Assembly (NCBI GenBank): GCA_000341795.1
Contig: AODO01000032.1
Span: forward strand, 1-64,000
Length of the DNA: 64,000 nt
Source: Rhodococcus triatomae BKS 15-14
GTDB lineage: Bacteria; Actinomycetota; Actinomycetes; Mycobacteriales; Mycobacteriaceae
Direction of reading: 5' to 3'
The notes below the pieces were generated by a model. That model was not told the origin of the DNA and did no database searches. It worked only from the letters and a program-made list of their open reading frames with translations. The position numbers were made by a program, and so were the translations under genes. The first letter of the stretch is position 1; each line of letters begins with the position of its first letter. Positions 104-5,025 of this stretch are shown piece after piece.

Positions 104-1408
104 TCAGCGGGTGGGGAGAGCCGCGGGCACCGCAGTGCCGGTGGTCACGCCGGTCCCCGTCGCGCTGCTTCCCGCAGCGCCGGCCGAGGCGGTGTCGGTC
201 CCGCCGGGCAGCGCCGACAGCGACTGCCACGTCGACCAGTCGATCGCCCAGTCGTAGATGTCGCCGTCGGCGGCGGACAGGTCGATTCGGGTGCCGGTGA
301 CCTCGACGGGGTCGCCGTACATCGCCGTCCCGAAGTACTCCTCCGCATCGGACAGCGACAGGTTGATGCACCCGTTGGTGACGTTCGCCGACCCCTGCAC
401 GCCCGTGGTGGCCGGGTTGGCGTGGATGAACTCACCGTTGTTCGAGATCCGCACCGCCCAGCGCTCGCGGACGTTCTCGTAGTACGGAGGGTTCGACATC
501 AGGAAGTCCTCGTGCTTCTCGGTGACGACGTGGACGCCGCTGCGGGTGACGTTGCGGTCCTCGTTGCCCTCGCCGTAGCTGACCGGGATGTCCATGATCG
601 TGGCACCGTCGCGGATCACCTGCATCCGGTGGCTGGTGGCGTCGGCCTTGACGATCTGGCTGCGCCCGACCGTGAAGTCGAGGGTGAAGTCGGACTCGCC
701 GTACGCGCCGTCGCCGTAGTCGACGCCGTACAGGTTCCCGGCGACGTGCACAGCCGTCCCCGGTGTCCAGTAGTCCCTCGGCCGCCAGTGCACGCGGGAT
801 CCGCCGTCGTCGGGCAGCCACGCCCACGACCCGACGGTCTGCGGGGTGGTGGTGACGGTCAGGGCCTTCTCGACCGCCGCCTTGTCGGCGACGGGCGCGT
901 CGAACTTGAGGATGATCGGTGCGGCGATGCCGACCTCCTGACCGTCGGCGATGTAGGTGGTGACCGAGGTGACGGAGTCCGGGTCGACGGTGGTGAACGC
1001 GCCTTCGACGGGCGTGCTGTCACCGGACGCTCCGATCGCGGTCCCGGACCACGTGTAGGTGGCGCCGTAGCCGAGCGGCTCGGTAACCGTGTAGCTACGC
1101 CGATCCGGCGACAATGCGCCCTGCACGGCCCTTCCCGACTCGCTGGTGAGCGCGACGTCCTGGAGGGTGCCGCCCGACGCGGTCACACTGACGGGCGCGG
1201 TGGGCGAAATGTCCGTGGCTCCGGCGCCGGGGTCCTGCGTGACCGAGACGCCGGAATCCCGCTCGGGCTGCGCGACCGGCGTCGCGGTCCCGCCCGTGGA
1301 GCAGCCCGCGATCAGCGCGATCAGCGCAGTCAACAGCGCGGCGAGTGCGAGCACCGACCGTCCGCGCGTCCTGTTTGTCCGTTTACCCTGTACAGCCACG
1401 GACTCCAC
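104..1408 (-). CDS. L,D-transpeptidase lipoprotein (LdtMt5/LprQ-like)
   Basis: Predicted to form 3-3 peptidoglycan cross-links outside the membrane. The 434-aa product has a basic N-terminus, a hydrophobic segment and a lipobox ending at Cys36. Two Ig-like domains (about 55-250) and a YkuD catalytic domain (about 255-375) follow, then a low-complexity Ser/Thr/Ala tail. The catalytic region has His329, about 14 intervening residues, then Thr344-Asn345-Gly346-Cys347-Ile348-Asn349. The usual motif has His before Gly-Cys; here it is Asn. Lying downstream of murB matches Rv0482-Rv0483 (lprQ, LdtMt5), so orthology to that divergent class is likely. Cys347 is kept, so activity is still expected. Confidence 0.9.
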   Translation of the reverse strand: MESVAVQGKRTNRTRGRSVLALAALLTALIALIAGCSTGGTATPVAQPERDSGVSVTQDPGAGATDISPTAPVSVTASGGTLQDVALTSESGRAVQGALSPDRRSYTVTEPLGYGATYTWSGTAIGASGDSTPVEGAFTTVDPDSVTSVTTYIADGQEVGIAAPIILKFDAPVADKAAVEKALTVTTTPQTVGSWAWLPDDGGSRVHWRPRDYWTPGTAVHVAGNLYGVDYGDGAYGESDFTLDFTVGRSQIVKADATSHRMQVIRDGATIMDIPVSYGEGNEDRNVTRSGVHVVTEKHEDFLMSNPPYYENVRERWAVRISNNGEFIHANPATTGVQGSANVTNGCINLSLSDAEEYFGTAMYGDPVEVTGTRIDLSAADGDIYDWAIDWSTWQSLSALPGGTDTASAGAAGSSATGTGVTTGTAVPAALPTR

Positions 1409-1468: not shown

Positions 1469-2554
1469 TCAGACGGCGCAGCCGACCGTCACCGGCTCCG
1501 GTTCGAGACGCACCCCGAACACGTCCTGGACCCCGGCCCGCACCTCCCGCGCGAGTGCCAGCACATCTCCCGCGACCGCGGAACCGCGGTTCGTCAACGC
1601 CAGCGTGTGCTTCGTCGACAACCGGGCCGCCGACCCCGGACCGGGGTGGCCCTTCGCGAATCCCGCACGCTCGATCAGCCAGCCCGCCGACAGCTTCGTG
1701 CCGCCGTCCGCGGGGAACCGGGGCACGGGAACATCGCCCACCCGCGCCGAGATCGCGGCCAGCACCTCGGCAAGCCGGTCGTCCGGCACCACCGGATTGG
1801 TGAAGAAGGAGCCCGCACTCCAGGTGTCGTGGTCGGTGTCGTCGAGCACCATGCCCTTGCCTGCGCGCAGCCGCAGGACCGTCTCGCGCACCTGCGCCGC
1901 GGGTCGCCGTTCCCCTTCCGCCGCGCCGAGCGCGGAGGCGAGCTCGCGATACCGCAGCGGCGCGCTCAGTCCGTCCTCGGTCGCGTCGAACTCGACGGCC
2001 AGGACGACGGCGGTGTCCGTGTGTTTGAGCGTGCTGGTGCGGTATCCGAGGCCGAGTTCGTCGGGCCGCACCCAGAGAACCTCACCGGACGCGCGATCGA
2101 GCAGCTGCACCCGGCGTAGCAGCGACGCGACCTCGACGCCGTACGCACCGACGTTCTGCACCGGGGTCGCACCTGCGGATCCCGGGATCCCCGACAGGCA
2201 TTCGAGGCCGCCGAGCCCGGCCGCCACGGACCGCGCGACCACCTCGTCCCAGACTGCACCCGCCTCCGCGGTGACGACCGAGCCGTCGATCCGGATCGTG
2301 TCGTTCGCGACCCGGACGACGACGGCGTCCACGCCGGCGTCGTCGACGAGCAGGTTGGAACCTCCCCCGAGGATCAGCAGCGGCACGTCAGCCGCATCGA
2401 GGGCGCGAACGACCGAGACGAGGGTGTCCGTGGAACGGCACGTCAGCAGGGCATGGGCCGGGCCCCCGACACGCAATGTCGTCAGCCGCGACATCGGCGC
2501 GTCCACGTCCAGTTCGGCGCCGTACTCGGCCGCCACGTCCTTCGCTACCCGCAC
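1469..2554 (-). CDS. murB: UDP-N-acetylenolpyruvoylglucosamine reductase MurB
   Basis: Reduces UDP-GlcNAc-enolpyruvate to UDP-MurNAc with NADPH and FAD in the cytoplasm, an early peptidoglycan step. The FAD-binding motif GGSNLLV, the segment [20 protein letters not shown] and the Ser-containing [10 protein letters not shown] are all visible. The frame stays open to an ATG at 2593, but that would overlap the divergent DUF2505 gene. GTG at 2554 (about 361 aa) is taken as the start, and GTG at 2536 is also possible. No good ribosome site precedes either, so the exact start is uncertain. The function is not in doubt. Confidence 0.93.
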
Positions 2555-2566
2555 GAGATCACACGG

Positions 2567-2572
2567 TAGCGT
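2567..2572 (+). promoter_or_regulatory. -10 element, leaderless DUF2505 copy 1
   Basis: TAGCGT lies 7 nt before the ATG at 2580 and no ribosome site is present. This is the TANNNT spacing of actinobacterial leaderless genes. The same arrangement precedes the next two paralogues. Confidence 0.5.
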
Positions 2573-2579
2573 GCCGAAC

Positions 2580-3083
2580 ATGGCACGCCGCATCCCGCAT
2601 TCGGTCAGTTATCCACAGCCGGTCACCAGCGTGCACGCGGCACTGACCGACGAACGGTACTGGCGTGAGCGGATCGCCGAGGTCGGTGGCGACGACGCCC
2701 GCCTCGACAAGCTCGAGATCGGCGACGGCACGGTGTCGGTCGAGATGGAGCAGGCGATCCCCGCCGAGCACCTGCCGTCGATCGTGACCAAGATCCGGCC
2801 GGGTGACCTGCAGATCGTCCGCACCGAGGCGTGGGGCCCGCTGGACGGCCAGCGAGCCACCGGCACCGTCACCGCACGGGTGACCGGGATGCCGGGCGAG
2901 CTGACCGGCACGGTGACCCTGTCCGCGTCGGGAACCGGGTCGACCGTCGAACTGGACGGCCGGGTACAGGTCTCGATGCCGCTGATCGGCGGGCGGATCG
3001 AGGCCGTCATCGCCGACCGGATCACGGAGATCCTCGATCACGAGGACGAGTTCACCGCTCGCTGGCTCGGCAACGATGCGTGA
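2580..3083 (+). CDS. DUF2505 (SRPBCC-like) protein, copy 1
   Basis: A 167-aa cytoplasmic protein without signal or membrane segment, matching DUF2505, whose fold resembles START/SRPBCC lipid- or ligand-binding cups. It shares with copies 2 and 3 the N-terminal basic segment, the [15 protein letters not shown] region and a C-terminal segment with [17 protein letters not shown]. It is divergent from murB and corresponds by position to Rv0481c. The ATG at 2580 fits the leaderless hexamer at 2567. The ligand and role are unknown. Confidence 0.85.
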
Positions 3084-3096
3084 CGGCGCGAACATG

Positions 3097-3102
3097 TAAT
3101 CT
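3097..3102 (+). promoter_or_regulatory. -10 element, leaderless DUF2505 copy 2
   Basis: TAATCT ends 8 nt before the ATG at 3111, only 13 nt after the stop of copy 1. Its position mirrors the hexamers before copies 1 and 3. Confidence 0.5.
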
Positions 3103-3110
3103 GCCCCACT

Positions 3111-3617
3111 ATGTCACGCCGAATCGAACTCACCCTGACCTACAACGCACCTGCGGCGGCCGTTCACAGTGCGCTGACCAACCGCGACTTCTGGCTGCAC
3201 CGCATCGAGAAGAGCGCCGACAACGGAGTCGTCCTCGACCGTCTCGACGGCGGCGACGGCACCGTCGACGTCGCGATCAGCCAGACCCTCGACAAGAACG
3301 CTCTGCCCGGGATGGTGTCCAAGGCCGTCAAGGGCGATCTCGTGCTCACCCGCGGCGAAGCGTGGGGTCCGTTCGAGAACGGCAGGGCCACCGGCACCTT
3401 CACCGTCTCGACCACCGGTCTGCCGATCACCGCCAAGGGCTCTGCCGTGCTCGCGGACGCCGGCGACCAGTCGACGCTGACGCTCGAGGGCGAGGTCGAG
3501 GTCGCGATCAAGCTGATCGGCGGCGCGATCGAGGGCATGGTCGCGGACCAGGTCATCGGCCCCCTCCTGCAGCGCGACCAGACGGCGACCGAGGAGTGGG
3601 TCGCGGCGAACGCCTGA
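3111..3617 (+). CDS. DUF2505 (SRPBCC-like) protein, copy 2
   Basis: A 168-aa paralogue of the flanking DUF2505 proteins. Shared landmarks include NRDFWLHRIEK near residue 25, GEAWGPFENGRATGTF near residue 82 and LEGEVEVAIKLIGGAIE near residue 125. It starts 27 nt after copy 1 and has its own TAATCT hexamer, so it may be transcribed separately. No catalytic residues are recognisable. Binding of a hydrophobic ligand is inferred only from the fold family. Confidence 0.85.
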   Translation: MSRRIELTLTYNAPAAAVHSALTNRDFWLHRIEKSADNGVVLDRLDGGDGTVDVAISQTLDKNALPGMVSKAVKGDLVLTRGEAWGPFENGRATGTFTVSTTGLPITAKGSAVLADAGDQSTLTLEGEVEVAIKLIGGAIEGMVADQVIGPLLQRDQTATEEWVAANA

Positions 3618-3688
3618 TCGCCCCGTCCGACCCCGTTCCCGCAGGCGCAACCTGCCTCCAGCGTTGTGGTCGATGCGTGCCGAGCCGG

Positions 3689-3694
3689 TAACCT
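3689..3694 (+). promoter_or_regulatory. -10 element, leaderless DUF2505 copy 3
   Basis: TAACCT is followed by 7 nt and then the ATG at 3702. The hexamer, spacer (gccgttc versus gccgaac) and first codons closely resemble those of copy 1. Confidence 0.5.
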
Positions 3695-3701
3695 GCCGTT
3701 C

Positions 3702-4202
3702 ATGGCTCGCCGCATCGACTACTCCGCTCGCTACACCCACTCGACGGCGGAGGTGTACGCCGCGCTGTCCAACCGGGACTACTGGGAGGCGCGGATGATC
3801 GAGCTTCGGAAGTTCTCGGACAACGAGGTCGAGTCCTTCGAGGTGACGGACGACGGCATCGACCTGGTCTTCAATCACCTCATTCCCCGCAGCGCACTGC
3901 CCGACGCCGCCCAGTCCGTGATGAAGAAGGACATGGTCATCACGCGCCGCGAGCGCTACAGCGCCTTCGGAGAAACCGTCACCGGCACGTACAGCGCCTC
4001 CATCCCCGCAGGACCGGGCAGCCTGACCGGCACGATGTCGCTGTTCGCGACCGATACGGGGTCGACGTTGCGGACGTCCTCGGAGGCGAAGGTGTTCATC
4101 CCGTTCATCGGCGGCAAGCTCGAGCAGATGATGCTGGTCAACGTCGTCGATCTCCTGCGTACCGAGGCCCGGGTCACCGCGGACTGGCTCGCGGAGCAGT
4201 AG
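3702..4202 (+). CDS. DUF2505 (SRPBCC-like) protein, copy 3
   Basis: A 166-aa third tandem DUF2505 paralogue, more diverged than the other two (ALSNRDYWEARMIELRK, then SSEAKVFIPFIGGKLEQ). ATG 3702 is preferred over an upstream in-frame ATG at 3666 because MARRIDYS aligns with the start of copy 1 and a leaderless hexamer sits 7 nt upstream. No partner enzyme is adjacent. Function unknown. Confidence 0.83.
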   Translation: MARRIDYSARYTHSTAEVYAALSNRDYWEARMIELRKFSDNEVESFEVTDDGIDLVFNHLIPRSALPDAAQSVMKKDMVITRRERYSAFGETVTGTYSASIPAGPGSLTGTMSLFATDTGSTLRTSSEAKVFIPFIGGKLEQMMLVNVVDLLRTEARVTADWLAEQ

Positions 4203-4239
4203 CACCGGCCGGGACCCCTCCCCCGGAGTGAATCCAGCA

Positions 4240-5025
4240 ATGAACCGCGCGGTAAGGCCCGACGGAGTCATCACTCGCGGCACCACGGGAATCAACCGGC
4301 TGCGCCGCAGCGACCGCTGGCTGATGCACCGCCCACAGGTCGTCGACCTGCTCCGCTCGGCTCCCGATCCGTTGGTCGTCGACCTCGGTTACGGCGCCCG
4401 CCCCGACACCACGTTCGAGTTGGCGGCCCGACTGCGCACCGTGCGCCCGGAGCTACGAGTGGTCGGCCTCGAGATCGACCCCGGCCGTGTCGTGCCGGGC
4501 CGCGACGGGGTCAGTTTCGCCCGCGGCGGATTCGAGCTCGCGGGGCTGCGCCCGGTTCTGGTGCGGGCGTTCAACGTGCTGCGCCAGTATCCCGAGGACG
4601 CGGTCGACGGGGCCTGGGCGAAGATCCGGTCGTCACTGGCACCGGGCGGACTGTTCGTCGACGGCACCTGCGACGAACTCGGTCGCCGCTGCGCGTGGGT
4701 GCTCGTCGATCATCTGGGGCCACGGTCGCTGACCCTGGCGTGGGACCCGTTCGACGTGGACCGCCCCGGCGACGTGGCCGAGCGCCTGCCGAAGGCACTG
4801 ATCCACCGCAACGTGCCCGGTGAGGGTGTGCACGACCTGCTGCGCGCCGCGGACCGGGCGTGGGCGACCGCGGCCCCGCACGCGGCGTTCGGGCCGCGGG
4901 TGCGGTGGCGGGCGACCCTGGACCTGCTGCGAGCCGAGGGGCTTCCGGTCGAGGTGCCGCGACGTCGGCTGCGGGACAACGTGCTGACCGTGCCCTGGTC
5001 GCTGGTCGCGCCGCGTGCCGACTGA
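4240..5025 (+). CDS. Class I SAM-dependent methyltransferase-like protein
   Basis: A 261-aa cytoplasmic protein. The segment VVDLGYGARPDTTFELA (about residues 50-66) is a SAM-binding motif I in a Rossmann-type methyltransferase, followed by VVGLEID, the acidic end of strand 2. The substrate cannot be read from the sequence. ATG 4240 is chosen because GGAGTGA lies about 9 nt upstream; the GTG at 4228 has no room for a ribosome site. It follows DUF2505 copy 3 by 37 bp, so co-transcription is possible. Confidence 0.75.
   Translation: MNRAVRPDGVITRGTTGINRLRRSDRWLMHRPQVVDLLRSAPDPLVVDLGYGARPDTTFELAARLRTVRPELRVVGLEIDPGRVVPGRDGVSFARGGFELAGLRPVLVRAFNVLRQYPEDAVDGAWAKIRSSLAPGGLFVDGTCDELGRRCAWVLVDHLGPRSLTLAWDPFDVDRPGDVAERLPKALIHRNVPGEGVHDLLRAADRAWATAAPHAAFGPRVRWRATLDLLRAEGLPVEVPRRRLRDNVLTVPWSLVAPRAD

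Follow-up and report, generated by a model that had tools for sequence, protein, structure and literature searches.

AhfA of Corynebacterium glutamicum (Cgp_0475) is encoded beside murB2; without it, the trehalose mycolates TMM and TDM drop dramatically, and it was proposed to act in the transport of TMM (PMC9671496). The deletion mutant further shows induction of the SigD envelope response (PMC11175481). At the murB locus, Mycobacterium smegmatis is reported to carry two such genes in tandem and Mycobacterium tuberculosis one (PMC9671496). Rv0481c of M. tuberculosis is reported to be non-essential (PMC9671496), and in a transposon study insertions in Rv0479c–Rv0481c and the neighbouring lprQ (Rv0483) seem to be growth-advantageous (PMC3854130), a listing that contrasts with the severe defect in C. 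glutamicum. The mycolate role has been shown for C. glutamicum only (PMC9671496).

Two kinds of described promoters are relevant to the DNA next to these genes. Bidirectional promoters with a symmetrical -10 element are described as having starts mostly 18 bp apart, with distances of 10 and 23 bp also being common, and the polymerases of the two directions are mutually exclusive (PMC12825309). Promoters of M. tuberculosis are reported to contain TANNNT, often preceded by CG, with no -35 consensus (PMC3898074). Leaderless starts in mycobacteria are reported to work only if the message opens with ATG or GTG, TTG being excluded (PMC4633059).

The locus described here lies in the window, i.e. the whole stretch of 64,000 nucleotides that was analysed, and belongs to a genome of 5.8 Mb in 73 contigs. 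Judged by its sequence, one bidirectional minimal promoter probably couples murB to the first of three tandem ahfA copies, while the two downstream copies would have one-way leaderless promoters. An initial annotation of this DNA overlooked the main feature, which is the predicted shared-TA, doubly leaderless promoter.

The box between murB and the first ahfA copy

The features of the locus are collected in Table 1. The three tandem genes match the Pfam family PF10698 (DUF2505) with 186.9, 148.1 and 168.0 bits for copies 1 to 3, at a cut-off of 26.9, and have a mutual identity of 32–40%. Identity to the counterparts in Rhodococcus sp. RD6.2 amounts to 93% for copy 3, 86% for copy 2 and 80% for copy 1. 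A fourth DUF2505 match in the same genome (contig C12) reached 22.0 bits, which is below the cut-off, was missed by our own profile and was left out. The 265-aa open reading frame at 4228–5025 (+), 3' of copy 3, has no Pfam match at E 0.001; by eye, its N-terminal half looks like a class I SAM methyltransferase.

Table 1. Features of the murB–ahfA locus in window coordinates
Feature	Position	Strand	Remarks
L,D-transpeptidase-like gene (YkuD + Big_10 domain)	104–1408		beyond murB, upstream of copy 1; domain matches
murB (UDP-N-acetylmuramate dehydrogenase)	1469–2554	-	361 aa; predicted leaderless GTG at 2554
Symmetrical ANNNTANNNT box, sequence ACGGTAGCGT	2563–2572	both	central TA common to both -10s
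-10 box TACCGT, murB	complement of 2563–2568	-	8 nt before GTG 2554
-10 box TAGCGT, copy 1	2567–2572	+	7 nt before ATG 2580
DUF2505/AhfA copy 1	2580–3083	+	167 aa; predicted leaderless ATG
-10 box TAATCT, copy 2	3097–3102	+	8 nt before ATG 3111; C at symmetrical-A position
DUF2505/AhfA-like copy 2	3111–3617	+	168 aa
-10 box TAACCT, copy 3	3689–3694	+	7 nt before ATG 3702; C at symmetrical-A position
DUF2505/AhfA-like copy 3	3702–4202	+	166 aa

Read on the opposite strand, the copy-1 box ACGGTAGCGT gives a second TANNNT hexamer followed, at leaderless spacing, by an in-frame murB GTG, so that the -10 hexamers of both genes overlap. This murB start is supported because position 8 of the NCBIfam model PRK13903 (MurB, 362 positions) aligns with residue 8; overall, model positions 8–361 align to residues 8–360 of the protein. 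An in-frame ATG further upstream, at 2581, was rejected as murB start, as it lies beyond the box. A scan of window positions 2300–4500 gave no sigma-70 consensus with a -35 element.

The design was then compared across the order. The survey of copies covered 397 genomes; DUF2505 was matched with an E-value of at most 0.001 in 283 of them and above the family cut-off in 266. Loci were hand-picked from among the matches listed, with some contig-edge matches skipped. Of 129 loci scored, L102 was dropped, being from the same genome as L036, which left 128; in 102 of them, including the window, the first copy adjoins murB, and in 26 it does not. As the loci are related, their counts cannot be treated as independent. 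For the DUF2505 genes, the start codon was set by profile position, regardless of the box, whereas for murB all in-frame candidates were considered and TTG was allowed. Dinucleotide shuffles of the 60 nt upstream of the 102 murB-adjacent first copies served as the null. Among the genus (g) and family (f) groups, g2 is probably Mycobacterium, g3 probably Nocardia, g7, with small genomes, probably Corynebacterium, and f12 probably Pseudonocardiaceae. The window genome and Rhodococcus sp. RD6.2 belong to one genus group, of which a further member (G398) contains the whole RD6.2 locus L036.

The symmetrical ANNNTANNNT is found in 96 of the 102 murB-adjacent loci (96 of 101 first-copy boxes). In 93 of the 102, a shared-TA box has ahfA 6–8 nt away on one side and an in-frame murB ATG or GTG 6–8 nt away on the other. 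This full design occurs in at least one locus of 13 of 14 genus or family groups, the exception being f4 (0/1). It is present in 6/6 loci of the window genus, 31/34 of g2, 10/10 of g3, 8/9 of g7, 3/6 of g5, 1/2 of g4, 3/3 of g9 and 22/22 of f12. Shuffles yield a TANNNT box at 6–8 nt in 1.7% of cases, a symmetrical box in 0.3%, and a symmetrical box with an opposite start in any frame in 0.04%. Across 1.96 Mb of fetched loci, the same architecture with two open reading frames of at least 150 aa was found 93 times here and twice elsewhere. The murB starts of the 93 loci are GTG in 89 cases, ATG in four and TTG in none, which fits the leaderless rule reported for mycobacteria (PMC4633059). If both messages are leaderless, the predicted start-to-start distance is 26 bp in the window and 24–27 bp in its relatives. 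CGG precedes the TA here with group-weighted frequencies of 0.91, 0.98 and 0.99, and no conserved -35 element is seen in the box-anchored alignment columns.

Similar arrangements were noticed at other places. The only other exact match in the window genome to ACGGTAGC[CG]T followed by 6–8 nt and ATG or GTG lies at G000:C12:257909-257927 (-). In L069 (g3), at about 10667, genes that by eye are SDR-like and alpha/beta-hydrolase-like diverge from a symmetrical TANNNT with starts 6–7 nt away on both sides. The same gene pair occurs in L056 at about 10466, but there the SDR start is probably further in.

Nine of the 102 loci deviate from the design: five are decoupled, three have the symmetrical box but a distant murB start, and one has no box. 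In the five decoupled loci (L067, L084, L088, L091 and L111), murB has a separate TANNNT followed by 6–8 nt and GTG. The symmetrical A is missing from the ahfA box in all five, and no other first-copy box is without it. A separate murB box in these stretches has a chance of 0.8–5.2% in shuffles with the candidate starts held fixed. On the copy-1 tree, the symmetrical A underwent at least three changes by parsimony. In L087, L119 and L120 (g2), the symmetrical box is kept and the murB ATG lies 22 nt away, with an SD-like GGAG ahead of it in L119 and L120. L087 contains a five-codon leaderless-type open reading frame between box and murB, the stop of which overlaps the murB start. As judged from this overlap, translational coupling possibly replaces a direct leaderless start of murB in L087. 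In L137, the sole f4 locus scored, the matched part of murB is 321 nt away and the box is absent. In L110 and L112 (g7) and in L137, the murB match is split in two, with some 50–65 bases between the parts.

The shared TA could also be the mere packing of two leaderless genes with abutting starts, whose promoters would overlap but serve no common purpose. In M. tuberculosis, divergent promoters in close juxtaposition are reported to be common (Cortes et al., PMC3898074), and the five decoupled loci indicate that the coupling is dispensable. Yet 93 of the 102 loci have kept it, in f1 as well as f12, and even in g9, where the sole murB-adjacent copy belongs to the clade of copy 3 and the symmetrical promoter is nevertheless kept in 3/3 loci. 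Moreover, an arrangement of this kind should by itself entail steric exclusion, however it arose. Packing is thus regarded as unlikely, and a bidirectional promoter coupling murB and copy 1 as the preferred reading.

Start signals of the downstream copies

The initial annotation placed a TANNNT hexamer 6–8 nt before each paralogue, and this is borne out: the distances are 7, 8 and 7 nt, and no Shine-Dalgarno site is present. Hence the pattern of a leaderless gene, TANNNT 6–8 nt before ATG or GTG and no Shine-Dalgarno site, is present here. The three boxes differ from one another, and only that of copy 1 is symmetrical and common to murB. The same difference is seen among the relatives, where the first-copy boxes nearly all carry the symmetrical A (96 of 101) and the downstream boxes rarely do (8 of 48; Fisher 1e-22, relatedness ignored). 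These eight downstream boxes are symmetrical although no gene diverges there.

TANNNT is located 6–8 nt upstream of 101 of 102 first copies and 48 of 49 downstream copies, while SD-like sites precede two of 102 and none of 49, respectively. First copies away from murB (n = 26) have a one-sided box in seven cases. The other 19, which are DUF2505 genes of f2, f4, f8 and f14, have no such TANNNT box, and ten of them have an SD-like site. Because every copy has its own conserved leaderless-type -10 box, an independent start site per copy is the best prediction.

In an ordinary operon, one message from the copy-1 promoter would cover all three genes, with little or no use of the internal TANNNT boxes. 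The copies do share one strand with gaps of 27 nt (copies 1 to 2) and 84 nt (copies 2 to 3), and no terminator-like site was detected in the scan of 2300–4500. However, as SD-like sites are absent from downstream copies, a gene in the interior of a long message would be unfavourably situated for translation, and nearly all of these copies carry the box at leaderless distance. An operon is therefore rather improbable, and read-through in addition to the copies' own promoters is possible.

Age, fold and function of the AhfA paralogues

Three tandem copies beside murB occur in 6/6 genomes of the window genus and in none of the other 96 murB-adjacent loci, of which 61 have one copy and 35 have two. 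The copy-number survey suggested in the initial annotation thus confines the triple tandem to the window genus in this sample. That mycobacteria have fewer copies, as stated in the initial annotation, holds if g2 is Mycobacterium (34 loci, one copy in 26 and two in eight).

A tree of 102 proteins was rooted on families f2, f8 and f14. The copy-3 clade comprises 30 rows (support 99/98) and the copy-1 clade 42 rows (97/88); each covers most of the sampled f1 genera, and g7 falls outside both. Copy 2 groups (98/96) with paralogues away from murB, namely L161–L163 of g3 and L037 and L038 of Rhodococcus. On this tree, which has long branches and an unsure exact branching order, the lineages of copies 1 and 3 separated early in the history of the family, and copy 2 is placed as an old third lineage that is in tandem only in this genus. 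A recent local triplication is ruled out by these anciently separate clades. The proposed tandem duplication of promoter plus gene, as a simple recent event, is accordingly not supported, with copies 1 and 3 in ancient clades and copy 2 grouped with paralogues from other places.

DUF2505 had been annotated as a family of no known function, but its members include AhfA, which is reported to be required for mycolate synthesis in C. glutamicum (PMC9671496). AlphaFold2 models were obtained for copy 1 (mean pLDDT 89.0, pTM 0.82) and copy 2 (mean pLDDT 88.2, pTM 0.81). The best match of the copy-1 model is a StART-like sterol-transfer domain (Z 15.1, 154 residues, rmsd 2.7), and that of the copy-2 model is a phospholipid-trafficking complex (Z 14.8, 157 residues, rmsd 3.0). 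Both copies are predicted to adopt a helix-grip (SRPBCC/StART-like) lipid-carrier fold, and a role as lipid carrier is the best inference for the AhfA family from these models. The carriers are putatively cytosolic, with lipids as candidate ligands, and the copies may divide the labour among them.

AhfA proteins might instead be enzymes, similar to cyclases or aromatases of the SRPBCC type. Aromatase/cyclases and norcoclaurine synthase have the same fold (Z about 11.5–13), and R31, R81 and E141, which are invariant in a 12-row alignment, could be functional. Lipid-transfer domains rank at the top for both models, however, fold likeness alone shows no function, and the C. glutamicum phenotype was read as lipid transport by its authors (PMC9671496). 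An enzymatic role is thus held to be improbable, and a lipid carrier is the favoured assignment.

The link between ahfA and mycolates can be followed beyond the mycolate producers. Pseudonocardiaceae are not known to have mycolates. Pks13, the condensing enzyme of mycolate synthesis, exceeded its cut-off in 15 of the 16 f1 genomes examined and in one of 22 f12 genomes (G390). As the score in G390 is an unconvincing sum over modular polyketide synthase stretches, a convincing Pks13 is found in 0/22 genomes of f12. All 22 of these genomes carry ahfA and murB on the symmetrical box, which indicates that the coupling either arose before mycolic acids or does not depend on them. The lone f1 genome without Pks13 (G215) contributes L111, one of the five loci with decoupled boxes, though this is a single case. 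Mycolate transport as the original role of AhfA is unlikely, and its first cargo may have been other than mycolate. Tentatively, and with considerable doubt, murB and ahfA could have been hard-wired to one mutually exclusive two-way promoter because the first cargo of AhfA was a lipid from the pathway of peptidoglycan or of another cell-wall component rather than a mycolate, with mycolate transport by two or three specialised tandem carriers coming later. A strict partnership with arabinogalactan was rejected, as Emb (PF04602) is present in just five of eight f12 genomes tested.

Proposed mechanism and comparison with known systems

Chance matches in GC-rich DNA can be dismissed as very remote, since TANNNT is admittedly loose, with about 16,400 occurrences reported for M. 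tuberculosis (PMC3898074), but lies at 6–8 nt in 149 of 151 copies (murB-adjacent first plus downstream), far above the shuffles, and in none of the DUF2505 genes away from murB in f2, f4, f8 and f14, so that shuffles and conservation refute a chance motif at sequence level.

On the observed genes, boxes, spacings and conservation, we infer the actual start sites and the competition of a bidirectional mechanism. Lying between the murB and copy-1 start codons, the symmetrical 10-bp element would act as two -10 hexamers with a common TA, from which RNA polymerase would start either way. Each transcript would begin at the first base of its start codon, the ATG of ahfA or the GTG of murB, about 26 bp apart and without a 5' UTR. 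Because the site should have room for a single polymerase, the murB and ahfA messages would compete for it. Copies 2 and 3, without a second half-site, would fire one way just after the preceding gene. In mycolate makers, the resulting helix-grip lipid carriers would probably assist in delivering trehalose monomycolate, or a precursor of it, to its exporters.

If true, the supply of an essential peptidoglycan enzyme would be tied to that of an envelope lipid carrier via ten base pairs, an element that is kept across two large families of Mycobacteriales. The murB–ahfA box would allow promoter symmetry to be tested cleanly on leaderless genes, by the exchange of a single base. The question of the AhfA ligand becomes askable in lineages without mycolates, and a rule for correcting murB start codons is suggested.

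The window locus resembles those of AhfA Cgp_0475, Rv0481c and MSMEG_0926/0927 in Pfam family, place beside murB and helix-grip fold (PMC9671496). In contrast to the Cgp_0475 system, it has three tandem paralogues, with copy 2 placed in a separate clade. AhfA of C. glutamicum is described as having no secretion signal, and the parts of that paper that concern AhfA do not mention the promoter (PMC9671496). A description of a murB–ahfA shared promoter was not found in the open-licence literature searched.

The start signals are similar to those described for mycobacterial and corynebacterial leaderless genes, in which TANNNT lies a few nucleotides before an ATG or GTG that is the start site, often after CG (PMC3898074, PMC4633059, PMC3890552). 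Among these, prpD of M. tuberculosis and its divergent regulator are reported to be both leaderless (PMC3898074). Here, by comparison, two such genes stand back to back on one box, and the tandem copies are each boxed as well.

Known bidirectional promoters with a shared -10 are alike in their pseudo-symmetrical -10 and in having opposing starts, which are predicted here (PMC12825309, PMC10268837). By our own geometry, their class of about 23 bp suits two hexamers with a common TA, and the 24–27 bp predicted here is slightly more than the 23 bp described for this class in E. coli. Unlike in these known cases, both messages are predicted to be leaderless, the promoter would lie between two start codons, and it is kept across two families for one gene pair.
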